From a virus, in the IMG/VR virus record IMGVR_UViG_3300010885_032908, positions 1 to 21,176 of that record: a DNA stretch of 21,176 nucleotides. The stretch is one strand, 5' to 3'. Shown piece by piece: positions 3,001-19,539 of the stretch (position 1 is the first letter of the stretch; each line of letters begins with the position of its first letter). A model generated the notes under the pieces. That model searched no databases, was not told the origin of the DNA, and saw only the letters and a program-made list of their open reading frames with translations. Made by a program: the position numbers and the translations under genes.

Positions 3001-6000
3001 TTGATTAGTAGATGTTAACATCAATTGATCAACTGCCAGGTTACGTTTGTACGTTGATATATTAAAAAGTGTTCCAAAATAAAATGCTGGTCGACTTAGT
3101 GCTATTGCAATTTGCAGTGCGTATGGGTAAGAGCTACTTCTACGCCATGCTGATTCTGCAGGACCTGCATCTCCTATAGCCCAGCTACTGCTCAATCTTG
3201 TTGAGTCAAATGTTGACAACAGAACTCTCTCGGGACTTTTTAGCATTCCAAATTCATCAACTGGGATTACTTTGCTTAGTCCTGGACGTGCGAATCGTTG
3301 GTCAAAGCCTGTGCGAGGACCACCTGCAATAAACCCTAGTTCTAGATCGTCCCAGAGTACGGTGTTTGCTCCTGTATAAGGAGCAGGACCATAACTTTGT
3401 TCCCACCAACTTGGACGTTCACTAAACCCTAGCATCTCCCAGGGTGCAACATGAGGTTTATCTGTATCGTAAAAATATGTATAAATGCCTCTCCAGAATC
3501 CAGGCACAAATTCACCAGTGAAATCTTTAAGGTATTTGTAGTTCCAGGTCCATGCGTTGTTACTTTCAAACGTGGCATTGGTATTGTAATCTACTTTTCC
3601 TACACTGGCCCATCTTAGGAAATTTTTACTTAGCAACTGATTAAACTCAGATCTAGAATAGTTAACAGACCTAAATTTTCCTGGTATTGAATCAACTATA
3701 TCCAGCAAAGCAGTCTGATAATCGACCTTAATGTTGTTGTAGATTCTTAGTTCTAGTTCTAACAGCAACTGATCGCGGATATCGTTAAACGCCGGAGTGA
3801 TACTGCCGTCATGGCCTTGAATCACAAGGGTTGGTATTTGATAAGTGTCGTCAACGTATATACGTGGAATGTTTCGAGGATGCAATCCAAGTTTGGTCGG
3901 AGTTTCTGGAACATAACACCCAACCGTTGATGGTCTATCAACAATTCGTAATTTTTGTGTATATGTTAACGTTAGAGTTTCTGCAAGATCAATAGCTGAA
4001 AGGTTAGCATTAAAAGTAAAATCGATGCCTTTAATCAGCTGTTGTTTAACACGCGGATTAGTTGAATCTTCAAGATAAATTAAAACTGATCTTCTGCTCA
4101 ATACCGTGTCGTCAAATGCACTAGGCAATTGATAGCGGCGCATTCTAACGTCAACAATTGGAATATTCGTGATAACCGCCGCGGTACCGTAAGGTATCAT
4201 ATCGCTGTCGTACCACGGCATACTGGTATTTTTTCCTACATTAATTGCAGTCATTAATATATCAACTGCTGCAGGAATATCTCTAGGATCTATGTCTAAT
4301 TTAACTCCTTGATCAATAAATTTATTTTTAAATTTAGTATATTCTTTTTGCGCAAATTCAATTGCTTCAATGAATTCAAGTCCTTTGTCACCTAAGAATA
4401 CAGAACTGTATATTGCAGGGCTTGCATGTTGTACAATAGCACCTTGCCAGGGTTTAATATCTATGTCTCTAAGATTGTTTTTTCCTAGCACGGCACCGGA
4501 CATTCCATAATGGCTGGTACTCATGATCGTTAGGTGTTGTCTTAATTGTCCAAGAGTCAGAGAACTAAAATTTAAATTTTCTGCATTTTGATCATGGTTA
4601 GTTGGCAACTGATAATGTCCAATTGACGATGCTGATCCACTGTAGATCAGTATGTCAACTTTGCTTGCTGGATCAAACGACAATAAAGTTTGATCGATTA
4701 TAACTGCATATCTTCCGCCGTGCTTTGCAATTTCAAATTGAGTTGGATCAATTATCTCATTGTCAACATATACCTTGGTATACGGAATAGTCTTGCTTTC
4801 TGCGGGCAAGATATCGATTTCAAAATAATTAGTCAGTCCATCAAACTCATGAGTGATAATCTGATATTGTTTTGTTGGTTCTGCCAGCTTTGTCCAAATA
4901 TTTCTATAACGGAAGCCGCTGGAAACTTTTTGCCTTAGATACATTGTATTAGTATCTTTGCTGATTTCTAACTTGTTTGATAGATACTGGAATGTTTCTG
5001 TATCGTAATTATTAACAAATTCAATGTCTCCAACATTCTGGAAATTTTTATAACTCAGTGGAAATCCTAATTTAGGATCGATTGTTCCAGTTCCAATTTT
5101 GTATGAAAATAATTTTGTTCCAAAAAATTTGCTACCAACATATACTGACGTATCAGTAGCAGAATATCCGGCTAGATCAAAGACATCAAACAGTGGTGCC
5201 TGATTGTAACTTTCTTTTTGTTGTGCCGGTAACCAATTGGTTCCGTTAAACCAGTACTGGTTATAGGTATTCACTCCAACTTGTCGTTGTTTGATTGCAG
5301 ATTGACCAGTGGTCGGTAACGCAATTAATACAGTGTCATCCTCTTCATATGTGTCAGGAGTAGGATCATCTGTTATAGTCTGTACTACATTTAAACTTTC
5401 AATTTTTGCCAATGCCTTGGCGCTTAATGCAAAATTAGTCAACAGCCCCTGGAATACTGGTTGAACTTGATTTAGTTGTACAAAATATTCAAACGTTGCT
5501 GTACCTGTTTGTAATGTGCTTGTGCCAATCACTCTTGGCACAGTTGAGCCAGTTGTAACTCCGCTACCATCAATGCCATACTCGCTGGTTACTGTCATTC
5601 CGACCACAATGCCATCAAGACTATCAACTTGTACTGTATCGGTTCCAGTACTGGAAACAATTTTCTCGACACTCGGAATAGCTGGCTCAATTGTGATAAT
5701 AGGTGCCGATGTATATTCTGCACCACTGTCTTCTATTTGTATTTTTAGTATTTTTGCTGAAGATAAGTTTGCAGTAATCAATCCTTCCATGCTGAATGCC
5801 AATGGAATTCCAGCTACACTGTTTACTCTTTGTGATACTCTGATAGCCTGGTTAACAATATCCATTGATATCACACGTATACCGTCGGGTAAATTGCCTG
5901 CTAGGTCACGTACTCTCATACCATACTGAATACCTTCAATGGTGTTTAAAAATATTGTTGCACTATCTGTTATAGGAGTTCGAATCAAATAATTTGATTT

Positions 6001-9000
6001 AGTTTCCCCAATCGGATCGCTTGTGGCATAATACTCTTCTGTAAAAAATCTACTCTTAGCGGTAAAAAGTATTTTAGCTCCTGCAGGCAAACTAATAGGT
6101 TCGCCGTCTGCATCAAGAGAATTAATATCTCCATCTAGCGTAATTACATTTTCATCAATTGATTCAACTTTTAAAATCGTAGCGTTAGTTAATTCTACAT
6201 CCATATAGGTCATAAAATTATCTGGGTCGGGACCAGTTACGCCAGTACTCACATAAGGAACTCGACTAAAATCAGTGTATCGTATAGTTTGATTTTCTTC
6301 TAGTATCAGTAAAGCAATCCATCCTTGATTAATATAAGCAATATCAGCTGCTGATGCAAACGTCAGTGAACGACTTCCGTTTGCTGTGCTATCAGATATA
6401 GTAGCAGTCACAGTACTAACGATCGTAGATACTAAATTATTTCCAATTTGGTATCCGGCGCCAGGAGTTACTACTTTAAAGTATTCAAGTACATCATCGT
6501 TTAATACCGCAGTAGCAGTTGGAGCGGTACCGCTTGCATAGGTAAAAGACAAAGACGGTGGGGTTAGATAGCCCGATCCGTGCTCAGTTATGTTAATGGA
6601 ATATAACGATATTCCGTTACTAACTGGAGTAGCTGTTGCAGTTTTGCCAATAAATGCCAATGTAGTACCGGCTAATACACTTACTTCACTGCTTAGTTCT
6701 AGTTGTGTTTCGCTTAAGATTTTTCCTACGGTTATTCCATATTCAACAGTAAAGCCGGCTACATATCCTCCGCTGACATACGGAGTATAGTTTCGACCAT
6801 CTAGTGTATTTTGTAATTCTGAATCACTGTAGAGTATCAGGGTTACGGCATCAGTTGCTCCGACCCAGTATATACCGCCATTTAATTCAGAGTCGGTTGC
6901 TGTTAGTACTCCACGTATTACAATTTTATCTCCATCTAATAGATTATGTGCAGAAGCCGTGGTGATCACCACTGGGTTTCCTAATACTATTGAGCTTATG
7001 TTGATTGGAGCAACACCGCCAGTAACGTACATGTTCTGGCCAGCCATTGCCGTGGTATCAACTGTGATAATTTTATTAAATCTTGATGTTTCTGTTACTG
7101 TGACTGTGGTGGTACTTGAAGGTTTTATAACTAACGTTCTACCATTACGCAATACAGCAGAGTTGCTTAACTGAAGCGTAACTCCGTCTGTGTTGATGTC
7201 GGCCACTGTGGTATTGCGAGGAATACCTTCGCCGTACACATTCCATCCAATGCTTACACCAACGGTACCTTGGACTCGTACGTTACTGTCTGAAAAGATA
7301 ATAGTATTAGCATAAGTTTCTGTTAGTGTTATCCCGGTTGCGCCAGCTGGTTTAAAAACATATTTTGTACCATTAGAAAGATTGGCTGCATTTGATAGCA
7401 CAATCTTGTTGCTACCGCCTACGGTATTAATAGTTGTACCACCAGTGACTCCATCGGCATACACTAACAATCCATTGGTTAGCCCCGAGTTGCTTACTAG
7501 ATCAACTATGCTGTTGGTAAATGTTGCTGTGTTTGCATAAGTGGTAGTAGTTTCTAGGCTATTAGGACTAGAAATAGTTATCGTAGGCGCTGTTCCTACT
7601 GCTGACCCACCTTCGATTATGCGGACATAATCAACATATTTGTATCTTGAAAATATTGCATCAAATTGCGCAAGCTCAGTATAAACTGTTTCAATTTTAA
7701 CCGATGGGTCTGCAATGTAATTAAGTCCACTGTAATTTACCACTGCATTTGCTACAGTAGTCGGAGCCATTATTGCAGTACCAACTGCTGGTCTTGCACC
7801 GATGCTGGGCACCGGACTGGCAAAAGTAACCGTAGGAATAAAATTATAAACAGGTGATGTAGCATATCCTATACCACCTGATACCAAATTAAATTCACTG
7901 ATTATACCATCTGCTAAGGTAACATCAATTTGTGCGTTCGTGCCATTACCGCCGCCAACAAATGTAGCAGTAGGAAGACTTCTATATCCTGAACCAAAAC
8001 TATCAAAAACAATATCAGTAATTGTTCCTGTGACACTATCTACTGTTATATTTGCTCTAGCAGGTTCATCTGGATTGCCACCAACAAATACTACTTCAAC
8101 ATTTTCAACTAATTGTACTTCCGGTATCTGATAAGTTGGAAGTAACTCAGTGTTTTGAGACACCAGGTGAATCTGGGTTCGCTCTGCGATGGTAATAAAA
8201 TCTACCTTGAAAATTTTATTTTTAATCTCAGTATCTCGATCTCCGGCAAAAATTATTCTTGTACCAGCTGTTAACGGACGAGTAATGTTATTAGGCAAAT
8301 GTATAACATAACTTTCTTGTCCTTCAACTTGATTAAATGCGTCAGTCACTGTGTAATCTAATATATCCACAGGGGCCTTAGCCCGTTGCCCATAATTGTA
8401 AAGATACAGGTCAGGATCAAATTCTATAATTGGTCGTGATCCGCGAAGTGCAACTGTTTCCAGTATCATTGGATCATTGTTGTACTCTGCGGCCAAAGTT
8501 ATTAGTTCACTGTGGAACCAGCGGTTACTACGACTCCAGGCGTTTAGATCTTGGCTACCTCTGCTGACTGTTAGATAATCAGGAGTACCCAATTGATCCG
8601 CCAGTGCGTACTCTTCTGGCACTACTAGATTACCAATGCTCACCAAGCGTATGCTTCTGCCAACACCTTCGACAATATATACATTGTTTGTGTATGCAGT
8701 CGGAATCACTGTGTTATCAAATCTAATTTTCATTCCGTTGGTAAACTTAACACCGTTGGGACTGGTATAATTTTTCTTACCAATGATTTCAACGGTTACA
8801 TCAATCTGTGCAGAGTCTGGCTCGACTAATTTAAATGTTCCAGCAAACGCATTGTTTACGCCATCTTGATAGTATAGTTCAGTTAATGGAGCAGTAATTG
8901 GTTTAATAAGTTGCCAAAATCCTTCGGAATTTTTTAAGTATTCAACTCCAGCATTGGCTGTTCCGCCTTTAATGTAAACTTTTTTACCTATGCTGACTTC

Positions 9001-10083
9001 TTGTATTGGTTCAAATCTAATCAATGTGTCGTTAAGGATTCTAATTCTAAAAATTCCATATCGAGCATCGGGCGCCAACAAACTTCCGGCTTCAAAAGGA
9101 TATTGAGATTCGGGGTCCTGATCAAATTGATCAAAGTCAAATACACCTTTATCTGTCCAATCGTCGTGTTCGGTTGTTTGTTTTAAAAAAATCACTGTTC
9201 GACCATTGAGTGCAGTTGACGCGGCACCGTCTATTCCACCTGATTTTTTTACAATGGTTAATAGGTGATTTTGTACTTGTGCATATGTCAGCGTGGTAGC
9301 GTAGTCAACTTCTGCCACACGTTCAGCAAGACGTGCAGTATCTTGTGCAGTTGATGCTGGCACACTAAAAGTTATAGTACCAAAATCATCGCCGTTGTTA
9401 GATACTCCAAATACTGATCTTATTTGTACTTCGGCTTCTGTTGAGCGTGTGCCAGATGCTCCTGGTAAAGTTTGAATCCAGAATGGATATCCACCCTGGG
9501 TAGTTTTAAAAGTGTAAGTGGTACCTTTAACTAATGTAACAATTGGATTAACATCAGTTCCGTATCCAGTTATGGTGTATGCTTGACGTGTGCTGTCCCT
9601 AACAACAGTAAAATCTAATACATTGATATTGCTACTTGCGCTAACAACAACTTCAGGAGGGCCGTCTGGTAACCAATAGTACTGATTGAAGTTAACAAAT
9701 TTGTCAAAATCAAACATGCCATCAAAGTTGTAGCTTTCACCTTGAAACAAACGGCTGTGGTCGTTTGTTAGTCCACCGTAGTATTTGATTTTTTGTAATA
9801 GATCAACATAACTAGAATAAAATAATATTGACTTTGCAGCGTCGGTATCTTGTACAACTAAACTAGGTTCAAGTTGATAATTTTGTCTATCGGTAGTTGG
9901 TTCCTCAACGTACTTGTCGCCTGCACGATAGTTAGGAGCAAACTTTCGCCCAATGTATCCATCAATTCTTTTAAAGTCTGGTTCAGAAATCAGCTGATCG
10001 ACTGTCGCCGCCAGGAATTTTCTATTTGCGTCAGATTTAAAAATTTCTGGTAGGAAATTGATACTTTTTATTGCAGCGGCCAT
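1..10083 (-). CDS. Giant baseplate wedge / virion structural protein (gp7 position), C-terminus outside the window
   Basis: The frame starts at the ATG at 10083 (MAAAIKSINFLPEIFKSDAN) and stays open for 3,361 codons to the left edge; I checked every triplet for stops. The start follows gp6 after 46 nt, where T4 has gene 7 (1,032 residues), so a wedge role is inferred from position and from resemblance to giant cyanophage-type structural proteins. Visible parts: N-terminal segment with GYIGRKFAPNYRAGDKYVEE (about 41-60); FVNFNQYYWLPDG then a beta-sandwich region resembling a degenerate cupredoxin (about 128-245); SQDLNAWSRSNRWFH (about 509-523); G-x-G-Y modules near 697, 737, 1170, 1208 and 3212; two tandem repeats of 75-76 residues (about 846-995); a conserved-looking core with LVIQGHDGSITPAFNDIRDQ (about 2080) and PGFWRGIYTYFYDTD followed by PWEMLGF (about 2190-2215). 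No signal peptide or membrane segment was noticed. I find one Cys, near residue 2056. The ORF and family resemblance are firm; exact function is not. Confidence 0.85.
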   Translation of the reverse strand, partial: MAAAIKSINFLPEIFKSDANRKFLAATVDQLISEPDFKRIDGYIGRKFAPNYRAGDKYVEEPTTDRQNYQLEPSLVVQDTDAAKSILFYSSYVDLLQKIKYYGGLTNDHSRLFQGESYNFDGMFDFDKFVNFNQYYWLPDGPPEVVVSASSNINVLDFTVVRDSTRQAYTITGYGTDVNPIVTLVKGTTYTFKTTQGGYPFWIQTLPGASGTRSTEAEVQIRSVFGVSNNGDDFGTITFSVPASTAQDTARLAERVAEVDYATTLTYAQVQNHLLTIVKKSGGIDGAASTALNGRTVIFLKQTTEHDDWTDKGVFDFDQFDQDPESQYPFEAGSLLAPDARYGIFRIRILNDTLIRFEPIQEVSIGKKVYIKGGTANAGVEYLKNSEGFWQLIKPITAPLTELYYQDGVNNAFAGTFKLVEPDSAQIDVTVEIIGKKNYTSPNGVKFTNGMKIRFDNTVIPTAYTNNVYIVEGVGRSIRLVSIGNLVVPEEYALADQLGTPDYLTVSRGSQDLNAWSRSNRWFHSELITLAAEYNNDPMILETVALRGSRPIIEFDPDLYLYNYGQRAKAPVDILDYTVTDAFNQVEGQESYVIHLPNNITRPLTAGTRIIFAGDRDTEIKNKIFKVDFITIAERTQIHLVSQNTELLPTYQIPEVQLVENVEVVFVGGNPDEPARANITVDSVTGTITDIVFDSFGSGYRSLPTATFVGGGNGTNAQIDVTLADGIISEFNLVSGGIGYATSPVYNFIPTVTFASPVPSIGARPAVGTAIMAPTTVANAVVNYSGLNYIADPSVKIETVYTELAQFDAIFSRYKYVDYVRIIEGGSAVGTAPTITISSPNSLETTTTYANTATFTNSIVDLVSNSGLTNGLLVYADGVTGGTTINTVGGSNKIVLSNAANLSNGTKYVFKPAGATGITLTETYANTIIFSDSNVRVQGTVGVSIGWNVYGEGIPRNTTVADINTDGVTLQLSNSAVLRNGRTLVIKPSSTTTVTVTETSRFNKIITVDTTAMAGQNMYVTGGVAPINISSIVLGNPVVITTASAHNLLDGDKIVIRGVLTATDSELNGGIYWVGATDAVTLILYSDSELQNTLDGRNYTPYVSGGYVAGFTVEYGITVGKILSETQLELSSEVSVLAGTTLAFIGKTATATPVSNGISLYSINITEHGSGYLTPPSLSFTYASGTAPTATAVLNDDVLEYFKVVTPGAGYQIGNNLVSTIVSTVTATISDSTANGSRSLTFASAADIAYINQGWIALLILEENQTIRYTDFSRVPYVSTGVTGPDPDNFMTYMDVELTNATILKVESIDENVITLDGDINSLDADGEPISLPAGAKILFTAKSRFFTEEYYATSDPIGETKSNYLIRTPITDSATIFLNTIEGIQYGMRVRDLAGNLPDGIRVISMDIVNQAIRVSQRVNSVAGIPLAFSMEGLITANLSSAKILKIQIEDSGAEYTSAPIITIEPAIPSVEKIVSSTGTDTVQVDSLDGIVVGMTVTSEYGIDGSGVTTGSTVPRVIGTSTLQTGTATFEYFVQLNQVQPVFQGLLTNFALSAKALAKIESLNVVQTITDDPTPDTYEEDDTVLIALPTTGQSAIKQRQVGVNTYNQYWFNGTNWLPAQQKESYNQAPLFDVFDLAGYSATDTSVYVGSKFFGTKLFSYKIGTGTIDPKLGFPLSYKNFQNVGDIEFVNNYDTETFQYLSNKLEISKDTNTMYLRQKVSSGFRYRNIWTKLAEPTKQYQIITHEFDGLTNYFEIDILPAESKTIPYTKVYVDNEIIDPTQFEIAKHGGRYAVIIDQTLLSFDPASKVDILIYSGSASSIGHYQLPTNHDQNAENLNFSSLTLGQLRQHLTIMSTSHYGMSGAVLGKNNLRDIDIKPWQGAIVQHASPAIYSSVFLGDKGLEFIEAIEFAQKEYTKFKNKFIDQGVKLDIDPRDIPAAVDILMTAINVGKNTSMPWYDSDMIPYGTAAVITNIPIVDVRMRRYQLPSAFDDTVLSRRSVLIYLEDSTNPRVKQQLIKGIDFTFNANLSAIDLAETLTLTYTQKLRIVDRPSTVGCYVPETPTKLGLHPRNIPRIYVDDTYQIPTLVIQGHDGSITPAFNDIRDQLLLELELRIYNNIKVDYQTALLDIVDSIPGKFRSVNYSRSEFNQLLSKNFLRWASVGKVDYNTNATFESNNAWTWNYKYLKDFTGEFVPGFWRGIYTYFYDTDKPHVAPWEMLGFSERPSWWEQSYGPAPYTGANTVLWDDLELGFIAGGPRTGFDQRFARPGLSKVIPVDEFGMLKSPERVLLSTFDSTRLSSSWAIGDAGPAESAWRRSSSYPYALQIAIALSRPAFYFGTLFNISTYKRNLAVDQLMLTSTNQRVRKNTFSIPDDGVNSGSVVFTAGYVNWVRDWFSSKSIDGTAKIKKLIQSLEVKLSYKMAGYSDGKLLTILADQSSPSSGSSNIIIPQENYKIFLNKSAPLSRIVYSAVIIERTTTGFSVSGYNLDNPYFTIIPSDPNGNFYSIKSINDTAIVYRDFQPVKLTVPYGFEFSSRQQVVDFLISYGRYLIGQGMVFDTFSNDLETNQDWSLSAREFLTWAQQGWKAGNLIILSPVYNAIKIINKNGVIDSVDGNLNGSKVLDQNFVKIKNSQFTVLRDENTFSLTSVFGQTIGLADLNLVQYEHVLLLDNTTVFNDIMYQPELNNRQYRLRLVGNKVGSWTGQLNPAGFIYNTDTVDAWVMQTNYKKGTLVNFKENYYYASSDVPAAIDFDFSYWTPIEKSRIKTGLLPNFAYNAEKFNNIYDQDNRPVDLQLNQLSQGVTGFRDRSYFQDFKLDVTSQAKFYQGFIRQKGSISAINALTTATFENLTSDITLYEEWGLRVGDYGALGSNQSIEFQLNETQFTNDPSTVVLINRGESSTDGVINVTPLELYRTTEDKFNRDPIQTRADIKPRVGDAVTAGYPRLDDVDSTIFDLSDYQDYSSLVSEIGAGFKLWVAKDFNKTWNVYRATETNVLINELQIGLDSQITINVDIPHGLVVDDLIVIKNFTGGQFDGFYRVISTPTAISFVVQGYKNIATLRAQQSISGLGVLLVMISVRYNRINELVSTVPLHGWRNKDRVWVDNDTANNVWAVFEKTDGWQFDRVLPVRQGDWRVNEGYGSALKISRDNSLILAAAKNSSSGSISGLRIIHPGFLYDVTEATFSLPLVDGGSRATVDIDEVSSTLLYTRVTNSGSGYTHEPNVAISDTSTLATTYLGNVWNNSTLTVTTLTETNTKTALLDAYPTRANIILTNVNDIWVGDTVTGSDGQGNSVPGTTLVANINYNTNMVTLTNSFQWNIASNPNLTFTRYKVHVGDIVTAIDNVGNVVGAETTTVESIGTLTN
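7100..7548 (-). repeat. Two tandem protein repeats of 75-76 residues inside the giant gene
   Basis: Two adjacent copies align by eye. Copy A (about 7548-7325) has the landmarks LLVYADGV, then TTINTV, then VLSNAANLSNG and VFKP. Copy B (about 7320-7100) has WNVYGEGIPRNTTVADI, then LQLSNSAVLRNG and VIKP. Matching landmarks are 225 to 228 nt apart. Related single modules of the form V-x-G-x-x-V, GTT-x-V, V-x-L-S/T-N-S occur near 5640-5500 (IVVGMTVTSEYG) and near 290-130 (IWVGDTVTGSDG, LTNSFQW). They look like beta-rich structural modules. The repeat is seen at protein level; DNA identity is low, so the copies are old. Confidence 0.6.
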
Positions 10084-10129: not shown

Positions 10130-13100
10130 TCACAGTAGTTGCGCAGCCGTGATAGCAGAAATTATTTCTACATTATCCACAGTGGCGGCGCTGGCAACGA
10201 TTTCGTCGGGTTCGGCATTAATCTGATACAGATTACCAAATGACAACCCGGTACTGGTTGGCACAATAATAATACTGGAGATCTTTGGTGTTAGTGCGCT
10301 GTGCAAGTATGCACTTAGTTCACTAAAGAAAAATGTTTCGCCAAAGTCCCAATTTGTAATATCAAAATATTTGTTGATAGCAGAAACAACTGCTACCTTG
10401 ATATCGTTATCGCTTATTACTACATTAGTATTTTTTACCACTTTAAATGTAGCACGAAGTACCGGATCGGCCTTGGCGCCAAACAATGGTTTAAATCTTG
10501 CGCTTGAGTATATCAGGCTATCGCTAATTGCTTTGTAGGATTCAAGTTCACTGAATTCTAATTGTAAATCTTCGGTTGTAGGTAACAACGGTTGAACAAT
10601 TTTTCCTGACGTATCTTGTATCCATGATTGGTAACTGGCTGCATATTGCTTTGTTAGCACAAATAAATCAATGATGTTATTAGGGCTAGGATCAATACGA
10701 CGATTTGCAGGACTGGTGTGTCTATATTGAAAATACAGGTCTTGGCGACCGGGCAACAGCAAATAAGTTTCGCCGTTTGCCGACGAAACCAATGTTCTAG
10801 TTTCTATGCCTTGTACTATTGCAACTACCAGCGTATAAAACAAGTTTTCCCCGTACGCATAAAATATCTGCCCATTGTCGTACTGATTATAAACGGCCAC
10901 AATGTCTGTCTGTGAAGCAAATGCTGTTTCAACTATGCCTTCGTTGATAATTGTATATTGAATATAATTGTTACTATTATAGCTTTTCTCAAAGAATATT
11001 TTTTTATTTTGAACATTTACATTAGGTGCTACAATTTCCTCAAACAGGTCAGGATTGTCTGGCACTCCGTCTCTGTTGCTGTCCGGAAATTGTAATAGTA
11101 TCTTGCTGGTGTTTTCAAACCCATCAGGGTCAATTATCATCTTGTAGATAAAATAAATTTTATCATCGTATATTGGACCGGTGCTGTCAGCAGATGAATT
11201 TGATCTTAAAATTTTAATTTGGTCGCTGATCACCTGTGCAGACTTTGGATCGTACACCCTAACCTTAGGATCAAAGTAGAATTTTGTTTCTCGTTTGCTT
11301 TCAAATATGTAATTTACTTGTCGATAATAAATTTTATAACCATATGGTCCGCTAACAAACGCAATTAACCAGCTACTGTCAAGGCTACTGGCTGTTATAT
11401 CCCCGGCGGTATTGCCGTTGTATTCTGAATTTACAATTCCATTGCCAAGCAATGTACTCAATGTCTGTGTTAGTTTCAAATTTTGTGGCTGTATCACGGC
11501 CCAGGTTTGCTTTAATTGGTCAAATCTAAGTCCAAAGTTTTTCCTGCCGTTTGTTAACGTAGCAGTCGTTCTGAGTACGTCAATTGGAATTACATTATAA
11601 AATTTAGGAATAATTTCTTCAATACATGCGCCATCAGGAATAAACGTGCTAAGGGTGATAGGACCCTCGACATTGTTTTTTATAATCCCGCCATTTGTAC
11701 CATCACCGGTTATCTTTACAACAGTTGCATAGATGTATAATCGGTCACCTGTTTTGTTAGGCGCACCTGTCTGGATGTCGTTGGCTTTGTCAAAGTACTT
11801 TGGATTTCCGAGGATCTCAGCCGCTGCTTTGAATTTTATGATTGCACCTTTTTGTATGAACCGCATTGCATTTGAAGATGCTTCTCCTGTTTTTAAAGGA
11901 GTTGCAAACGTTCCTGTCAAAGTTGCTGAATTATAGTTTGTGCTGGTTGCAAAAAATCCAGTAGACTGATTGGTACCAGTTGTTAGTTGAGTCCAGGCCG
12001 CATCAAAAATTGTTCCGTTAACTGTAGCGTCACGTGTGGTATATCGAGGCAACTTTTCGTAAATTAACTGACTAAACGGAACAAAGTTATCTACTAATAA
12101 AGAATTATTAATAACTTCATTAAGACTGCTCACCACGTCACCAGATGTTGGCGGAACATACTCCTGCGCTTCAATAGTCTCTTGTTTGTACAATACTCCG
12201 TCTTCACCAAATATATTAGTGCTAGAGTACTTGCCAGTAACGTCAATTGTGTCAAGGTATCTACTAACGCCACTGCTGTTACGATTGGTGGCTTTGATTT
12301 TTAAAATGTTGCTAAACTTAGTAAACGGCAGGATATTATAATCTTCGCCAGTTACCATACGGTTCTGAGTATAGTACTGCTGTGGTGCTTTGGTTTTAAT
12401 CTCTTCTAGTGTTTCTCTAGTGTTGGCATTGTTCACCGTATAATGAAGGCTTGCTTTGATAGTTAGAGTTTCAGCACGACCATTACGACTTACATAGGTT
12501 ACCGGAATAGATACATTTTGCATTTCCTCAGGATTAATTTTGTAATTAAACCCGTTACTGGTTCTATAAAACAATCTATAGGTACCAATTGGTATGTTTG
12601 CAAATGCGCCATCACCAAATACTAGATCAATTTGGTCGTTAGCTCTGGTATTCACTTGAAAAATATTTCTTTCAACTGATGTGTTATAGATAACATTAAA
12701 TCCAGCCACATTAGGAACTTCGGACCATTTGTCGCCAGGCGTGCCTGAACTGTTTAGTTTAAACAGCCAAATATCATTGTTATTGATGTTGTCTACGTTG
12801 ATAGACACAATGCGATTAGGAAGACTGTCAGTTATTGTAAAGTCAATTGTGTTGATGTCTCCTTGTTTGAAATAAACAAACCAGCCAGTGTTGTTGCTGT
12901 TATTTCCTAGGTTATCATTGCGATAGAGAAAATTAAATATTTTGCTAGGGTTAGGATCTTTTTCGTAGAGATACTCTTGGTCAACACTGGTAGCCGACAC
13001 TACCTCAAAATTCATTGCAGTTCCCTCAATGTTCTGCTGGAACTTAAAAGCTGGAATAATATTAGGCAACAGATTTGCACTGTACTCTTCAGTTCTTGCG

Positions 13101-13642
13101 CCTGCAATAGTTTTTGTGTTACCCGGCTTACCAACAACTTGACTATCTATCATTGCTGCATTTAAAATAATTGCAAATTGTTCTTGCCAGTTGTCGTTGC
13201 CTGGATCATTCCAAAAAACAGAAATGTTACTTAGATTTAACCCATTGGAATCAAAAACATTTTCACTCGTACTTACACTGTCAAATTTTAGAAGACCACT
13301 TGAACCAATATTTCGTTTTGGATTGTAACTGATCAGTCGAGCTAACTTTAGCACACTGTCTCTGCGCTCTGCTGTGTCTAAGAAATTCTCGCGGGCATTT
13401 AAATCTGTGCGGAAAGCCAGTGATTGCCCTAGAAATGCAATCAGGTCAATGAGTGCTACGTATTCACTGCTTTCTAAAAAATCATTAAAATCTTCTGGAT
13501 AGTATGTACGCAAGTAGTCAATCATGCTTTTACGCAAGGTTTCAAAGTCGTAGCTTTGAAAGTCAGCGTTTTGAAAGCTCTGATAGACTTTTTTCCAGTC
13601 CTGCTGGATCAGTAAATTTGTTTGTCTTGTGGTAGCGGCCAT
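10130..13642 (-). CDS. 6: Baseplate wedge protein gp6 (large form)
   Basis: This is a gp6-type wedge protein of 1,170 residues, compared with about 660 in T4. In T4, gp6 forms the ring that ties the wedges together and drives baseplate opening. The N-terminus (QQDWKKVYQSFQNADFQSYD, then YLRTYYPEDFNDFLESSEYV and the LNARENFLDTAERRDSVLKL segment, about residues 14-105) is the family's helical head. Residues about 420-470 (YYTQNRMVTGEDYN) and the C-terminus (about 1090-1170, with NWDFGETFFFSELSAYLH and VDNVEIISA) match the baseplate-J-like parts of gp6. The middle (about 480-1000) holds most of the extra length. It includes DSNRDGVPDNPD at 854-865, an acidic loop resembling calcium-binding DxNxDGxxD loops. 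The only Cys is residue 673. The start is the first ATG of the frame, 49 nt after gp25, with no clear Shine-Dalgarno sequence but with a late-promoter-like motif 22 nt upstream. Confidence 0.93.
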   Translation of the reverse strand: MAATTRQTNLLIQQDWKKVYQSFQNADFQSYDFETLRKSMIDYLRTYYPEDFNDFLESSEYVALIDLIAFLGQSLAFRTDLNARENFLDTAERRDSVLKLARLISYNPKRNIGSSGLLKFDSVSTSENVFDSNGLNLSNISVFWNDPGNDNWQEQFAIILNAAMIDSQVVGKPGNTKTIAGARTEEYSANLLPNIIPAFKFQQNIEGTAMNFEVVSATSVDQEYLYEKDPNPSKIFNFLYRNDNLGNNSNNTGWFVYFKQGDINTIDFTITDSLPNRIVSINVDNINNNDIWLFKLNSSGTPGDKWSEVPNVAGFNVIYNTSVERNIFQVNTRANDQIDLVFGDGAFANIPIGTYRLFYRTSNGFNYKINPEEMQNVSIPVTYVSRNGRAETLTIKASLHYTVNNANTRETLEEIKTKAPQQYYTQNRMVTGEDYNILPFTKFSNILKIKATNRNSSGVSRYLDTIDVTGKYSSTNIFGEDGVLYKQETIEAQEYVPPTSGDVVSSLNEVINNSLLVDNFVPFSQLIYEKLPRYTTRDATVNGTIFDAAWTQLTTGTNQSTGFFATSTNYNSATLTGTFATPLKTGEASSNAMRFIQKGAIIKFKAAAEILGNPKYFDKANDIQTGAPNKTGDRLYIYATVVKITGDGTNGGIIKNNVEGPITLSTFIPDGACIEEIIPKFYNVIPIDVLRTTATLTNGRKNFGLRFDQLKQTWAVIQPQNLKLTQTLSTLLGNGIVNSEYNGNTAGDITASSLDSSWLIAFVSGPYGYKIYYRQVNYIFESKRETKFYFDPKVRVYDPKSAQVISDQIKILRSNSSADSTGPIYDDKIYFIYKMIIDPDGFENTSKILLQFPDSNRDGVPDNPDLFEEIVAPNVNVQNKKIFFEKSYNSNNYIQYTIINEGIVETAFASQTDIVAVYNQYDNGQIFYAYGENLFYTLVVAIVQGIETRTLVSSANGETYLLLPGRQDLYFQYRHTSPANRRIDPSPNNIIDLFVLTKQYAASYQSWIQDTSGKIVQPLLPTTEDLQLEFSELESYKAISDSLIYSSARFKPLFGAKADPVLRATFKVVKNTNVVISDNDIKVAVVSAINKYFDITNWDFGETFFFSELSAYLHSALTPKISSIIIVPTSTGLSFGNLYQINAEPDEIVASAATVDNVEIISAITAAQLL

Positions 13643-13691: not shown

Positions 13692-14087
13692 TTAATTAGT
13701 GTTGACGCCAAACACGCCGCGTGACACCGTGCGGCTGTCGCGATCAAAATTGAATGAAAGCGTGGCAGTTTTATTTTCAACTAGATAGGTTAGAGTAATG
13801 GTAATTTGTATACCGGCGTTAAATTCATCAATTTGAATTGTATCAACCGCAACCCGGGGGTCGTATGTAACTATGCGTTTAATATCGTTTGTGATAGCTT
13901 TGCGCACTGAATCCGTAAAAGGTTCAAATAGCATACCCCATATAATGGTGCCAAAGTCTGGGTTCATCAACTTTTCACCTTTACGGATGTTAAAATGATT
14001 AAAAATATCTTGCTGAACTAACTCAAAGTCTGTAACTTTGAATTTTCTCAGTCTATTGTATGTGCTAAACCCTTTGTACATTGCCAT
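13692..14087 (-). CDS. 25: Baseplate wedge protein gp25
   Basis: The product has 131 residues, close to the 132 of T4 gp25, and belongs to the gp25/GPW family found in contractile tails, R-type pyocins and type VI secretion (TssE). In those machines it sits in the inner wedge core, bridges to gp6-like proteins and nucleates the sheath. The family block GEKLMNPDFGTIIWGMLFEP (residues 38-57) is clear, and the usual E-P-R motif appears as YDPRVAV, with Asp for Glu. The gene sits 17 nt after the lysozyme-like gene and 49 nt before gp6, a usual neighbourhood. No convincing Shine-Dalgarno lies before the ATG; the leader is AT-rich and contains AATAAATA. It contains no Cys. Confidence 0.95.
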   Translation of the reverse strand: MAMYKGFSTYNRLRKFKVTDFELVQQDIFNHFNIRKGEKLMNPDFGTIIWGMLFEPFTDSVRKAITNDIKRIVTYDPRVAVDTIQIDEFNAGIQITITLTYLVENKTATLSFNFDRDSRTVSRGVFGVNTN

Positions 14088-14104: not shown

Positions 14105-14878
14105 TTATGATTTAGAGGCTAGGACGTCAATTGCATACCGTCCTAGTGCAAAAAAGTAAGTTCCAGTAAATCCGTTGACATTTTGGCCACCACCTGTTTC
14201 TCTCCAACGTTTAGCGCCAGGATTTTTTTCAGTACCAATACCCGGTCCTAGTATGTGTGCAACACATAACATCCCAGCAATGGTACAAAGATTGTCCAAA
14301 GTTTTGATAGATCCGTTATTGCTCATTGCTTCGTAATTTCGAGTTAACAACTTGTGCATGGCTTTTTCTTGGATTCCAGAACTAATGGTCCATGTTTGTA
14401 AACTTGTTACACCGTCGAGCCCAGTCCAGGCAGCAGTTTGTGTAACTGCGTCACGACCGTATAGAGCATAGTAGTCCGGTTTAATGTATCCTAGCGATGT
14501 TAAAAAATCTGCATCCAGTTGATATTTGCCAACCTGCTGAGCACCACTAACAAATGAGTAGCTAAATCCGCTCACTGCTTTGCCAATCACGGTCATTACT
14601 GCTTTTGTGCGTAGAAGATTTAGTCTTCCTACTCCGCCTGGTGGGCTTGGATTTTTCTCAGTAACCAGTAGACTTTTTGGTATGTCTTTACCAATATAAA
14701 GTCCCTGTGACCGCGCACTCTGTGGGCCTGGGTCCAATTTTTCATCGCCTGAAGTTTTATAACTTCCGTCAGCATTTTTTATCGGGCGGCCTGCACGATC
14801 ACGCACAACATTGCCAGGTACGCATTCTTCTTCTTCAAATTGCTGTACTATCTCAGCTTGCTGATTAACATTGGCCAT
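14105..14878 (-). CDS. Lysozyme/transglycosylase-fold-like baseplate-associated protein
   Basis: I choose the start at 14878 (MANVNQQAEIVQQF), giving 257 residues. GGAGGA lies 5 nt before this ATG and the upstream gp5-like gene stops 1 nt earlier. A longer frame from 14947 would add 23 residues overlapping that gene. Residues 1-85 are charged and Pro/Gly-rich, probably a linker. Residues about 90-257 resemble the lysozyme-like fold of phage muralytic proteins: VGKYQLDADFLTSLGYI (116-132), QEKAMHKLLTRNY (170-182), TIAGMLCVAHILGPG (199-213) and a C-terminal FALGRYAIDVL. In active relatives a Glu (often E-S-G) stands some 15 residues before GKYQ; here the matching place reads AVSGFSY (V102), so activity is doubtful. 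T4 gp5 carries a lysozyme domain whereas the neighbouring gp5-like spike seems to lack one, so this protein may take that place at the spike, perhaps only structurally. Enzyme function is inference. Confidence 0.6.
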   Translation of the reverse strand: MANVNQQAEIVQQFEEEECVPGNVVRDRAGRPIKNADGSYKTSGDEKLDPGPQSARSQGLYIGKDIPKSLLVTEKNPSPPGGVGRLNLLRTKAVMTVIGKAVSGFSYSFVSGAQQVGKYQLDADFLTSLGYIKPDYYALYGRDAVTQTAAWTGLDGVTSLQTWTISSGIQEKAMHKLLTRNYEAMSNNGSIKTLDNLCTIAGMLCVAHILGPGIGTEKNPGAKRWRETGGGQNVNGFTGTYFFALGRYAIDVLASKS

Positions 14879-14879
14879 T

Positions 14880-16331
14880 TTATCCTCCAACCGCAGAAGA
14901 CTCGCTTGTGCCACCTTCTCGCTTCCATGGCTCATGCGTTGGTGCAACTACAACAATGCTTGTTAGCTTGTCTGCTTGTATTTCCCACAACCCAGTACCA
15001 GAATTAAATGTAGTATCTGCATGAAGTAATTTTGGTATTTCATCTGGTTTAGCAACGGTAGGAGCAGGACTGGTATTTAAGTGTATCTTTCCTCCGCTGA
15101 ACTGCAATAGTTCTCCTGCTTTGAAACTACCAACGCCAGCAGCTGACAAATTCATTGTACTGGATGCGCCAATTTGCACAGTAGAAGCATATATCTTGGT
15201 CAAGTCTGAGCTCATCTGGTTAAACACCTTGGTGTTTATGTCAATTTGTTCGCCTGCATATATCTGTAGTTTTTTCTCAACATGTATGTTCATGTTAGTG
15301 TCAGTATGAAAATTTATGTCACCTTGACTACGAACATTAAATCCTTGAGCTGTAAAAATATGCATCTGCCCGTTACCAGCCAGTTCGATCCAGCACGTAC
15401 CTTCATTATTAATGATATGCATGTTGCTGTTGGTATCATCCATGAGTATCTGATGGCCTGTTGCTGTGCGGAATCGCATCAGCTGACTTTTACCATAAAA
15501 GTCTCCGTCATCCATAACCATATGGTGACCACCGCGGCGGCCTAGGTTAAACAAGTCTCCTTCTTTGATATCGCCGGAGTCTATTTTTCCTTTAAGTGTT
15601 TCGTTTTCAGCAGTATCATTTAAAAGTTTACGACCCGGGCTACTCCATCCGTATACTGCGCTTGGAAGATTGCGCTGTGCAGAACTTGTTACTGCACCAC
15701 GCTCTGGATCGCGGTCAACACCTTGTTTGATATATCGTCTGGCCTGCCATTCATGTGGCGGCTTTTTTACTGTCATGAATTCGCCGGAAACGTTTTCTCC
15801 ATCGTTTTCATTGAACTCACTTAGTGGCCAAACAGATTCATCGGTTAACGATTTTTCAAGGTCGGCAGCAAGAGTCTCAATATCCATCTTATCTTTTGTG
15901 CCACCAGCAATCGCCGGAATCATACCAAACCCAAGTTTGTTCATGGTGCATGCAAACCAATACCCACGCCCAGGATCACCTGCAATAAAAGTCACCAGCA
16001 CTACGTTTCCAATATCAGGTGGTACTGCAAAAAATCCATATGTATGTTGCACGTATGTAAAATTATTAAGTTTAACGCCTTTAAGATTGTCGGGCTGATA
16101 GGTCATACCTGCAAAAGGACTTGCATAGCTTACTGTATACCAGTTTGCAGGATCGTCTTGATCACCTGCGCCTAGTTCTGGAATCCATACCTGTAGACGT
16201 CCAGCACGAGTTGTATCTACCACGTTCTTGATCAGGGCTTCGTACGGACCTGGGTCAATATTGGCATTTGCGGCCGCACTTGGAGTTGCTCGTTTTGGAA
16301 CTTTACTACTGTATATTCTATCTTGTGCCAT
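14880..16331 (-). CDS. 5: gp5-like baseplate hub spike protein (OB fold plus beta-helix)
   Basis: The product has 483 residues and forms the trimeric membrane-piercing spike below the hub. The N-terminal OB fold of the gp5/VgrG/gpV type spans about residues 28-135: IKNVVDTTRAGRLQVWIPEL and later PPDIGNVVLVTFIAGDPGRG with YWF. A middle region (about 190-290) has SSAQRNLPSAVYGWSSPGRK and RRGGHHMVMDDGD, which I associate with gp5 of marine T4-like phages. From about 290 to 420 short repeating beta-strand units (for example GQMHIFTAQGFNVRSQGDIN) match the needle-like beta-helix. The C-terminus contains APTHEPWKREGG. T4 gp5 (575 residues) has a lysozyme domain between OB fold and helix; I see none here, and the next gene may replace it. 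The start has AAGGAC 4 nt upstream and follows the previous gene by 13 nt. Confidence 0.88.
   Translation of the reverse strand: MAQDRIYSSKVPKRATPSAAANANIDPGPYEALIKNVVDTTRAGRLQVWIPELGAGDQDDPANWYTVSYASPFAGMTYQPDNLKGVKLNNFTYVQHTYGFFAVPPDIGNVVLVTFIAGDPGRGYWFACTMNKLGFGMIPAIAGGTKDKMDIETLAADLEKSLTDESVWPLSEFNENDGENVSGEFMTVKKPPHEWQARRYIKQGVDRDPERGAVTSSAQRNLPSAVYGWSSPGRKLLNDTAENETLKGKIDSGDIKEGDLFNLGRRGGHHMVMDDGDFYGKSQLMRFRTATGHQILMDDTNSNMHIINNEGTCWIELAGNGQMHIFTAQGFNVRSQGDINFHTDTNMNIHVEKKLQIYAGEQIDINTKVFNQMSSDLTKIYASTVQIGASSTMNLSAAGVGSFKAGELLQFSGGKIHLNTSPAPTVAKPDEIPKLLHADTTFNSGTGLWEIQADKLTSIVVVAPTHEPWKREGGTSESSAVGG
14883..14888 (-). promoter_or_regulatory. Shine-Dalgarno GGAGGA that fixes the start of the lysozyme-like gene
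   Basis: GGAGGA forms the last two sense codons (Gly-Gly) of the gp5-like gene, followed by its TAA and then ATG one base later. The spacing is ideal for initiation at 14878, and the arrangement suggests translational coupling of the spike and lysozyme-like genes. Confidence 0.8.
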
Positions 16332-16344: not shown

Positions 16345-19300
16345 TTAATTTCCTAACGCAATAGCCGCTTTGGCCGCGTCCGATGCTTGTTTTGCTGCCA
16401 ACAGTGGAGGAGTATTGTTTGCCAATGCTGCCTGATATACAGATGTATAGTTTGAATTTGATACTATTTGATCTATTGGAATATTAGCCTTAGAGGCTGC
16501 CGTGCTAATCACGTCAGGCACTTTGGTGCTGGCCGCAGATGTAACAAACGCTGTGGCTGCTTTATATGGTGGAATAACAGTTGTTGTAACTGGACCTGCT
16601 TCTGCCACTCCTTTACCAACAGTTGGACTGTCTGCAGGAATATCTTCAACTGACTGTATGGTCTCACCGTTGTTGACCACGTCCTGAAGTTTTTCTGCCT
16701 GAGGGTCAACCGCTTCGGTATCTTCATTGGCTTTTTCTATTTGGCCAGCATTTGAATTTTCGTCATTTGACTGAGGATCCTTAGGTGACATAAGTTCTGT
16801 CATTACTTTTGTTTTTTGTACTTCTACGGAATTAGCACCTTCGCTGTCAACTGCTTCAAATCCAGTGTCTGCATTAGACGCCGATATAGCTTGAGGTATA
16901 TCAGTTCTGATATCTGTGGAACTATTTCCGCTAGACCCAAAATCATTTGGTTGATCAGGTAATCGTATCAGTTCTAGAGTTTGTTCAAACTTGCCTTGTG
17001 CTAGAGTACTTTCAACAGATATAACTTTATAGATTCCACTGAATGCAGATGCACTGTACTTACCGTCAGATCGCATAAAACCAGTTTCTTCATCTATGTC
17101 AACTGGTGTCCTCCAGCTTAGTCTAACATGTATTTCACCGCCGTCTGTTGCAATGGAACCATCGGCTCCTCCGACGTTTCCGTCACCATATGCTTCTTCT
17201 CCTGAGTCAAATTGTCTAGCTGCTGGAGTATAGTATATATCGTCTTGTTTGATAAACTGTGGGTCACCCACAATTTTTAAACGCACAGACAATTGGTCTG
17301 CACTGCCGCCATTGTTCTGTTGATCTTGAAGGCTTGCGGCGGCCACGCTTTTACCATCTCTTTTAGCTTGACCACCTGCAGTGGCATTCGCTTGCTCGTT
17401 TACCAGTACTACTTTGGGAGGAGTAACTGGACTCTGTGTTGCATCCTTATTGCCTTTACCCGGTGCTTGCTCGTCAAGGTTTTCTTCCTCTGGACCCGGA
17501 GTGGTTGTAATACTTTGATTCTTTCCTCGGTCTATACTTACTGCGGTATAGAATGCGGTATCAAACTCAATTGAAAAATCAATAATGTCATCATTCTGTC
17601 CAGTATATAGGTACTGGTAGTCTTTGTGCCAGCCAGTGGGCATTGACTTAGGCGCATTAGGATGAGTCCTGTTGTTAACTGTGTAGGATATCACGTGATA
17701 GGTAATATCCATGAACCAGCGACTGGTTTTTGTGCAAAATTTTCTCATCTGTACTGAAGGAACTATTTTCCACCATAGCAAGTCTTTTCCTAGTTTTTCA
17801 GCGTTTTGTTCTACACCAATGGTTGGATCTATTAACTGTTTGCGAATGTAATTTGAATTTATCATCGCACTATTAATGATAGTGGTTATGCTATCGCCAC
17901 CGCGGATGTTCCATTTACTAACTTTAAAATCAGGCTGTCCTTTTGGTTTGCCGGCGTCAGCCTGTACAGTTTGTGCTCGTTCTTTTTGGTTCTTGGAATT
18001 TTTTTCAGCTACTTGAGTTTTCTGTTGTGCTTTTTCATATACGATCTTACCACCTTCGCCGTTGAATGCGTCAAGAATTTTTTTGTCAAACTTAACACTA
18101 ATAGTATTAAAGTCTGTAGCATGGTTATTTTTTACAGTTAACTCTTGCCAGGCATTGTATGCGGCCGGGAAACTTTGCACGGTGTATCCAGAGTCTTCTT
18201 TTTTCTCTGCATCAGTCTTGCCACTGGTTGCATCTTTCTTTTGTGTTGTTTCTCTGGTCTGTGCATCTTCGGCCTGAGCACTTTCGTTTTGTTGAGCTTT
18301 TGCATCACTTTCTTGTCGTTCGTTGAAGCTGGCCTTGGTTCTTGCATCCACTGTTGCATCGTCTTTAAAAAAGTCTTGCAAGGTACTGGCTACCACTTCA
18401 AAGTTTGCTGGCGCTGTTCCTACAGATTCTTGGAATCCACTGTGCGTGTAAGGAACTCCCGATATAGTGTACTCAGCACCTTTGATTCCAGCTTTGATTC
18501 CCATGGATATTAACTTGAGTGGAATATACTTGCGTTGATTCTCAATTTGTTGGCCCATTCCTTCATCATCGTATCCGTAAAAATTAATCACCAACAAATA
18601 GGGAATCTCAAGATAATTTTTTCCGTCAACTTCATTGACACACGCATCAATCATGCGATCTATTAGGGTAATCCCATATGGCTCAACTAAAGTAAAACTT
18701 ATATCAACAGCATTGGTTCCTGCGTTGCCAGCCTGACTACCAATGATAGAATTCATTTTAAAATTTTCAAAATAGAAATCATCTTGAAAGTTTATGTCGC
18801 GCTCAAATCCACTGCCTTCGCCACCGTATTTTCCAGCACTGGCCACAAGGGTATGCCCTGGCTTCCAGTCTCCATTGGGATCTTGCGCCATGGAATTGAA
18901 ATCCTCTTTGGTAAGCATATGCCAGGACAAGCCATAGGTATACGACGAATACGCATGCAACGGGTTAGGTACCACTTGAATTTCTGAAGAAGCGCCGGGA
19001 GTAATTTCCATGGTTCTATTCAGACGTGCAGTTTTAGCTGCACTTTCATTATCATCTGGTACCCCAATGGCTGCAAGTACACTTTTATTAGTTAAGTTAA
19101 CCGGATCCTCTCCACGAGACTCTTCAGTATCTGTGTTATCAGCGCCGTTAAGTCGGGCAGCTTCGTCGGCCGGCAACGGAGTTGTTTCTACTGTGCCTTG
19201 CGTTTCTTCAACTGCTCCAGCAGCGGTATCATTTTGTTGTTCAGCAGGTTGTGGGGGTGGAGCATTTTTAGCATCTTCGGCGGCTTTTTTCTCAGCTGCT

Positions 19301-19539
19301 ATAGCGGCATCGAGGTCGTATTTTAATGCTGTGAGTTTTTGATTTTCTGCGTTAAACGCCAACCTAGCATCATTTGCTGGGCCGCCAGCCTGTAATGTTA
19401 ACCGTTCAACTGCATCGGCGTTTTGATAAGCAGGAGAAGCCACAAGGGCTTTCATGGCAGCAACACGTTCGTCGTTCTTCTGCTTGACTACTAGATACTG
19501 TGCTTCCCATTGCGCATCTAACTCTTTTGCTGTTGCCAT
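16345..19539 (-). CDS. Large modular baseplate hub-type structural protein
   Basis: The product has 1,064 residues. The order of parts is: a helical, probably coiled-coil head (1-95), an acidic Pro/Ala/Glu linker (95-170), a folded module (about 175-395, with VPNPLHAYSSYTYGLSWHML and IPYLLVINFYGYDDEG), a Lys/Glu/Gln-rich linker (400-450), a short module (455-500), a charged stretch (500-535), a module (about 538-675), a linker (680-748), a module (about 750-862, with VRLKIVGDPQFIKQDDIYY and SGIYKVISVESTLAQGKFEQ), an acidic tail and an Ala-rich end (990-1064). The last module (G-x-Y-x-V-x-x-V-E ... F-x-Q-T-L-x-L-x-R) resembles the gp27/gpD hub fold, and the gene lies just before the gp5 spike, so a hub role is inferred. 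T4 gp27 is only 391 residues. It could instead be a linker-rich protein joining hub and wedge. Structural role likely; exact identity uncertain. Confidence 0.6.
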   Translation of the reverse strand: MATAKELDAQWEAQYLVVKQKNDERVAAMKALVASPAYQNADAVERLTLQAGGPANDARLAFNAENQKLTALKYDLDAAIAAEKKAAEDAKNAPPPQPAEQQNDTAAGAVEETQGTVETTPLPADEAARLNGADNTDTEESRGEDPVNLTNKSVLAAIGVPDDNESAAKTARLNRTMEITPGASSEIQVVPNPLHAYSSYTYGLSWHMLTKEDFNSMAQDPNGDWKPGHTLVASAGKYGGEGSGFERDINFQDDFYFENFKMNSIIGSQAGNAGTNAVDISFTLVEPYGITLIDRMIDACVNEVDGKNYLEIPYLLVINFYGYDDEGMGQQIENQRKYIPLKLISMGIKAGIKGAEYTISGVPYTHSGFQESVGTAPANFEVVASTLQDFFKDDATVDARTKASFNERQESDAKAQQNESAQAEDAQTRETTQKKDATSGKTDAEKKEDSGYTVQSFPAAYNAWQELTVKNNHATDFNTISVKFDKKILDAFNGEGGKIVYEKAQQKTQVAEKNSKNQKERAQTVQADAGKPKGQPDFKVSKWNIRGGDSITTIINSAMINSNYIRKQLIDPTIGVEQNAEKLGKDLLWWKIVPSVQMRKFCTKTSRWFMDITYHVISYTVNNRTHPNAPKSMPTGWHKDYQYLYTGQNDDIIDFSIEFDTAFYTAVSIDRGKNQSITTTPGPEEENLDEQAPGKGNKDATQSPVTPPKVVLVNEQANATAGGQAKRDGKSVAAASLQDQQNNGGSADQLSVRLKIVGDPQFIKQDDIYYTPAARQFDSGEEAYGDGNVGGADGSIATDGGEIHVRLSWRTPVDIDEETGFMRSDGKYSASAFSGIYKVISVESTLAQGKFEQTLELIRLPDQPNDFGSSGNSSTDIRTDIPQAISASNADTGFEAVDSEGANSVEVQKTKVMTELMSPKDPQSNDENSNAGQIEKANEDTEAVDPQAEKLQDVVNNGETIQSVEDIPADSPTVGKGVAEAGPVTTTVIPPYKAATAFVTSAASTKVPDVISTAASKANIPIDQIVSNSNYTSVYQAALANNTPPLLAAKQASDAAKAAIALGN

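Follow-up and report, generated by a model that had tools for sequence, protein, structure and literature searches.

A gp5-borne transglycosylase domain, split from the spike protein once and bereft of its catalytic glutamate, as a probable pseudo-enzyme in a jumbo-phage lineage

Tail-associated lysozymes are assumed to serve cutting. The collective evidence from the viral DNA analysed here (the window: all 21,176 nucleotides of IMG/VR record IMGVR_UViG_3300010885_032908, positions 1 to 21,176) makes it probable that a transglycosylase domain formerly borne by the spike protein gp5 was split off a single time, lost its catalytic Glu on the same branch and has been kept as a pseudo-enzyme on or near the spike. 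The domain is found in the window as a stand-alone, lytic-transglycosylase-like protein of 257 amino acids lacking the catalytic Glu (14105..14878, minus strand), characterised from its open reading frame, its match to phrog_27932, an AF2 model and its dN/dS.

Baseplate neighbourhood and coupling to gp5

The stand-alone gene belongs to a baseplate block that consists of a gp53-like gene, a large structural protein of the virion, lying upstream of gp5 and hub-like by position (16345..19539, minus strand; phrog_11190, E 5e-23), gp5 itself (14880..16331, minus strand), the stand-alone gene, a gp25-like baseplate wedge protein (13692..14087, minus strand; Pfam GPW_gp25, E 1.3e-10) and a gp6-like baseplate wedge protein (10130..13642, minus strand; phrog_10646, E 1.3e-289). 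Among phages, the best matches to gp5 and gp6 come from jumbo phages (PA5oct, SCTP-2, Phosso, Atu_ph07 and the RaK2/GAP32 types). The first-pass annotation had described a gp5-like spike that passes from OB fold to β-helix without a lysozyme, tightly coupled to the next gene, and both parts of this description are upheld. The gp5-like central spike of 483 amino acids has a Phage_base_V OB match in Pfam and aligns with the N-terminal 372 positions of the 887-position 'hub + tail lysozyme' PHROG, the lysozyme part being absent; the stand-alone frame opens with the ATG at 14878, 1 nt past the stop of gp5. Within the junction GGAGGATAAAATG (14876..14888, minus strand), the Shine-Dalgarno sequence GGAGGA of the stand-alone gene overlaps the end of gp5 and is followed by the gp5 stop and then the start codon. 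The protein is probably made by coupled re-initiation directly after gp5.

At the C-terminal end of the gp5 β-helix (window ~14935-14960), a THEPW/Y/F motif is kept across these phages, whatever comes next. Downstream of gp6, the window encodes a protein of >3361 amino acids (1-10083, minus strand) that has no Pfam match and continues beyond the window end; in a 355-kb relative, an ORF of 4590 codons starts at the same place.

Fold and family assignment

Placement of the protein among muralytic folds relies on the agreement of structure, collinear motifs and PHROG family, not on one score. phrog_27932 (baseplate hub and tail lysozyme) matches residues 102-249 of the window protein with an E-value of 1.5e-13, and its lysozyme part is matched in 31/31 members of the family, so the motif likeness is not due to chance. 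tblastn retrieves the tail-lysozyme region of Rhizobium phage gp5, with E down to 7e-9, Agrobacterium phage gp5 also, and more weakly proteins of N4-like phages. Among Pfam lysozyme models, SLT (PF01464) included, none matches any of the 31 members; Phage_lysozyme (PF00959) finds no match in the window protein, and the PDB sequence search returned none for this domain. TALE-repeat matches by phmmer in the PDB (E ~0.01) were dismissed as stemming from a low-information Leu-rich stretch. When alignment A5 was scanned against bacterial genome contigs, no match was obtained.

The AF2 model of the window protein, built from 31 sequences, has a pLDDT of 87.5 and a pTM of 0.85; in it, V102 falls at the C-terminal end of helix 88-103. 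Nearly all of its best 50 structural neighbours in the PDB (VIA-align/Foldseek) belong to the lytic transglycosylases or the g-type lysozymes (best Z 11.5), MltE superposing with a Z of 11.2 and an rmsd of 3.6 Å over 153 residues; a Z of ~11 is not decisive for helical proteins, and the Foldseek E-values are weak (best 0.022). The model of a fused relative, L041, gave much the same list of neighbours. In BFVD, another stand-alone viral protein of the same fold is present (A0A6J5LB36, 220 amino acids, 24% identity). The lysozyme-superfamily fold suspected from the first-pass reading is borne out by the structure prediction and its neighbours. The comparison with T4 gp5 lysozyme drawn in the same reading holds as regards a muralytic fold tied to the spike and is less apt as regards the family, the closest appearing to be GH23 rather than GH24. 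Judged from the model, the predicted fold resembles the lytic transglycosylases of GH23 more than the T4 gp5 lysozyme; T4 lysozyme is absent among the structural matches listed, from which exclusion of a GH24 fold does not follow. With E. coli MltE, Slt70 and goose-type lysozyme (GH23), the window protein shares the predicted fold (Z 9-11) and a set of collinear motifs, namely a Ser after the catalytic position, G-x-x-Q and an R-Y near the C-terminus. It differs from these enzymes, which have the catalytic Glu (MltE E64-S, Slt70 E478-S), in lacking the Glu and in having no Pfam or PDB sequence match.

Loss of the catalytic glutamate in a retained cleft

Residues 101-107 of the window protein read AVSGFSY. 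The catalytic segment of MltE, and also the Slt ES motif, align without gaps to VMTVIGKAVSGFSYSFVSGAQQVGKYQL of the window protein, which makes V102 (GTG codon, 14573..14575, minus strand) the counterpart of MltE E64; scores of hhalign against single sequences are weak (MltE E 0.06, Slt E 0.28), the register with MltE being clear from both ends. Column 102 is Glu in 43/43 distinct homologues that are not stand-alone. The 6/6 stand-alone copies with data show V (window, L007, L010), T (L038, L039) or A (L040) instead, each with the following Ser kept (V102-S103 in the window). The absence of a Glu before GKYQ, first read from the window protein, is confirmed by the homologue alignment, V102 sitting exactly where the homologues carry Glu.

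The surroundings of this position are largely retained. GKYQ (residues 117-120; 14519..14530, minus strand) is the counterpart of the GH23 GLMQ motif in the alignment with MltE and Slt. AGMLCVAHILG (14246..14278, minus strand), conserved in fused and stand-alone copies, appears to take the place of AYNxG as substrate-cleft motif; its AGMLCVAH at 201-208 fits AG-x-L-x-x-AH, so both motifs originally read into the protein are present. The correspondence of AHILG to AYNxG was drawn by eye, the profile alignment there being without significance. After AHILG, an insertion with an invariant GTE (E217; 14222..14245, minus strand) is common to the stand-alone copies and the fused, Glu-bearing L041 in the alignment, and R247-Y248-A249 (14132..14140, minus strand) is, by eye, the probable counterpart of the R-Y192 motif of MltE. 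S103, Y107, G117, Y119, Q120, G202, H208, G211, R247, Y248 and A249 are all kept in the stand-alone copies. Two further positions have changed: position 111, aligned with MltE S73, is N/E/D in 43/43 non-stand-alone homologues and S/G/T in the stand-alone ones, and at 122, near the cleft motif, a conserved Gly has given way to S/D/E.

Origin by a single gene fission

In >30 related viral sequences (L020, L021, L024, L041, L050 and many others), this domain forms the C-terminal part of a fused gp5, in the ancestral order OB fold, β-helix, transglycosylase; it occurs also in Rhizobium and N4-like phages. All aligned Glu-bearing copies of the gp5 lineage are fused except for four that are ended by a contig edge (L023, L048, L083, L084). 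In an IQ-TREE tree built without column 102, the stand-alone copies (n=6) form one clade (100/97), to which the fused, Glu-bearing L041 is sister (96/79). Fission and Glu loss each map as one change, both on the same branch. The split and the loss co-occur once, and their association is a single evolutionary event.

The N-terminal 80 residues of the window protein (14639..14878, minus strand), partly aligned with the L041 linker, come from the old linker between gp5 and the transglycosylase. The L041 linker NVVKDSNGNPVKSGSGGYVTSGEEKLDPGP corresponds to the N-terminal segment of the stand-alone proteins, and therefore the break lies just past the THEPW/Y that is conserved at the spike's end. 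Spacing and frame of the junction differ among members (TAAAATG, TAATG, TAAATG, TAATATG; the TAAATG of L038/L039 is in frame), so that the separation is genuine and not a conserved frameshift or readthrough. A programmed frameshift or readthrough to a fused product was accordingly discarded as a general mechanism, the frame relation at the junction being variable.

The proposed course of events is that the C-terminal transglycosylase domain of gp5 was cut off by gene fission once, in a jumbo-phage ancestor, and that the only acid/base catalyst, Glu102, was replaced by V, T or A on the fission branch; the fold and many residues of the glycan cleft would have been kept under strong purifying selection.

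Purifying selection on the stand-alone protein

The dN/dS (NG86) is 0.043 between the window and L007 (dS saturated, 2.6) and 0.047 between L038 and L039 (dS 0.99), in pairs that are 81% and 92% identical; for gp5, gp25 and gp6, window versus L007 gives 0.037-0.038. With a dN/dS of ~0.04, like that of the neighbouring baseplate genes, the stand-alone protein is subject to strong purifying selection and shows no decay. A pseudogene was dismissed on the same values. A remnant heading for loss might be read into related phages whose gp5 has neither the domain nor such a gene adjoining, as in PA5oct (478 amino acids) and SCTP-2 (476 amino acids); besides dN/dS, the complete stand-alone copies, all full length with intact frames, speak against such decay, which we regard as extremely improbable.

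Function of the Glu-less protein

In lytic transglycosylases a single residue acts as acid and then as base (PMC7083599), in MltE E64 (PMC5841429). Because one residue serves both roles, cutting should cease once the Glu is lost. PDB titles call the MltE E64Q variant inactive and record an E64Q structure with bound chitopentaose, and the E481A form of LtgA is not among the binding-defective ones (PMC7083599); a Glu-less cleft can, on these grounds, still hold glycan. We infer that the stand-alone protein is catalytically inactive, binds glycan and is present in the virion. It would be a maintained pseudo-enzyme situated at or close to the central spike or hub, most likely a non-cutting module that either binds peptidoglycan or has a structural part in the spike. 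The further step, according to which a tail-tip transglycosylase has turned into a separate, non-catalytic peptidoglycan lectin that anchors or guides the spike of these contractile-tailed jumbo phages at the wall, is put forward tentatively, as somewhat less than an even prospect. Were it true, the phages would get through the peptidoglycan with no cutting by the spike, or by means of an enzyme of a still unrecognised kind.

That the protein might still be an enzyme had been raised in the first-pass annotation, with D122 or D124 as the substitute acid. Acids occupy these positions in the window, L007 and L010; they are S and V/K/I in L038-L040, and the two residues were rejected as catalysts because they are not conserved among the stand-alone relatives. 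The columns acidic in every stand-alone copy (135, 155, 171, 195, 217, 251) have acids in most fused copies as well, and the alignment holds no acidic column gained on the stand-alone branch. E217 of the GTE insertion is the only reasonable substitute acid: it does not vary across the stand-alone clade and L041, it adjoins the AHILG cleft motif, and much of the cleft is conserved under purifying selection. Yet E217 already stands beside the normal Glu in L041 and is for that reason not a compensation, and the second active-site position, 111, has been lost as well. From the alignment, a role of E217 as catalyst appears unlikely, and continued enzymatic activity by E217 or by a repositioned E171 or D195 is improbable overall. 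A purely structural role, in which the domain would only help to assemble or cap the spike or hub and would not bind peptidoglycan, deserves more weight, although we still hold it to be unlikely. In its favour, relatives carry the domain fused to the spike, and the catalytic residue, the second active-site position and Gly 122 have all changed; against it, the surroundings of the substrate site (S103, Y107, GKYQ, H208, G211, R247, Y248) are selectively kept, residues that may also serve the fold. Of the earlier proposal that the fold had become purely structural, the non-catalytic part stands, and a purely structural protein is not separable from one still binding peptidoglycan. Lastly, the polypeptide is now separate and has a ribosome-binding site to itself, so it could be a free late protein off the virion that attaches to peptidoglycan or acts as an inhibitor of other transglycosylases inside the infected cell, as in wall protection or superinfection exclusion. 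However, the stand-alone gene lies inside the baseplate block, directly after gp5 and before gp25 where looked at, no signal peptide is seen by eye at the N-terminus, and the domain is covalently part of the spike in close relatives, which renders this assignment highly improbable.

Replacement enzymes and lysozyme-free relatives

The 355-kb relative has a single copy of the domain, namely the degenerate gene. A second, active copy was absent from records L007, L010, L011, L022, L039, L038, L041, L050 and L069, which are mostly fragments. PF00959, PF01464 and PF13539 had no match in nine related records, nor had PF01510, PF08291, PF01551 and PF05257 in six; a phmmer search of every ORF in the 355-kb relative, with VanY, GH24, MltE and Slt as queries, yielded none, and simple motif regexes there gave chance-like matches only. 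These empty hydrolase searches are absence of evidence only and leave room for an enzyme of an unrecognised kind. The gp5 proteins of PA5oct (L013) and SCTP-2 (L015) have no lysozyme part and no adjoining lysozyme gene; being of the same size as the window's, they indicate that a lysozyme-free spike is viable in related phages. The annotation of PA5oct gp5 reads 'baseplate hub subunit and tail lysozyme' despite the missing lysozyme part.

Relation to known systems

Tail lysozymes and pseudo-enzymes are each known kinds; in the literature searched we found no report of the combination, and searches there on inactive or pseudo-enzyme tail lysozymes turned up no precedent. The lineage seems to be a natural experiment in which an enzyme was freed from the spike, lost its catalyst on the same branch and was maintained about as strictly as the spike. 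A second job of such domains, in wall binding and positioning or in spike stabilisation, thereby becomes testable. There is also a caution, in that a 'tail lysozyme' match need not mean an active enzyme.

T4 gp5 likewise has a muralytic-fold domain associated with the central spike. Its active lysozyme domain (GH24; E184/D193/T199) is located between OB fold and β-helix (PMC3004832), whereas the domain is a separate gene in the window and follows the β-helix, C-terminally, in the fused relatives. In gp5 of phrog_27932 (Rhizobium and Agrobacterium phages, Pootjesviridae), a homologous domain with 25-32% identity to the window protein is situated inside a gp5 of ~850 amino acids and has the Glu (HESSNDY). 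The fused gp5 of uncultured relatives (L041, L020, L021, L050 and others) shares the gene neighbourhood and a transglycosylase domain 35-53% identical to the window protein, but is one chain with the Glu intact, to which some add a VanY-like peptidase. The nearest hint to the window's combination is the hub of Anabaena phage A-1(L), whose lysozyme-fold domain is without reported activity while two neighbouring domains are described as active ('dual'; PMC10966104); the domain there is part of the hub protein and not a separate gene, and is likened to the window protein by its description.

Other arrangements of the domain were encountered among the phages compared. In Atu_ph07 gp5 (L016:3705-6302), a C-terminal trypsin-like serine protease (Trypsin_2, E 6e-17) comes after the lysozyme-like stretch; Phosso gp5 (L014:2088-5222) has the same look by eye, with a very long Gly/Ser linker and no Pfam protease match. 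An apparent VanY-like (M15-type) peptidase lies C-terminal to the transglycosylase in gp5 of L025, L046, L057, L059, L070, L079 and L087, as called by motif or by length and the visible C-terminus, Pfam being silent for L025; there would therefore be two wall enzymes on one spike chain. In L121 (2491-5154), the same transglycosylase family stands directly after Gp5_OB, a T4-like position, together with a weak match to M15 peptidase towards the C-terminal end. The Glu-bearing domain is also situated N-terminally in a giant protein of the N4-like phage pYD6-A (L005:3917-8321), which RefSeq names virion RNA polymerase, and C-terminally in a large protein of PJNS034 (L004).
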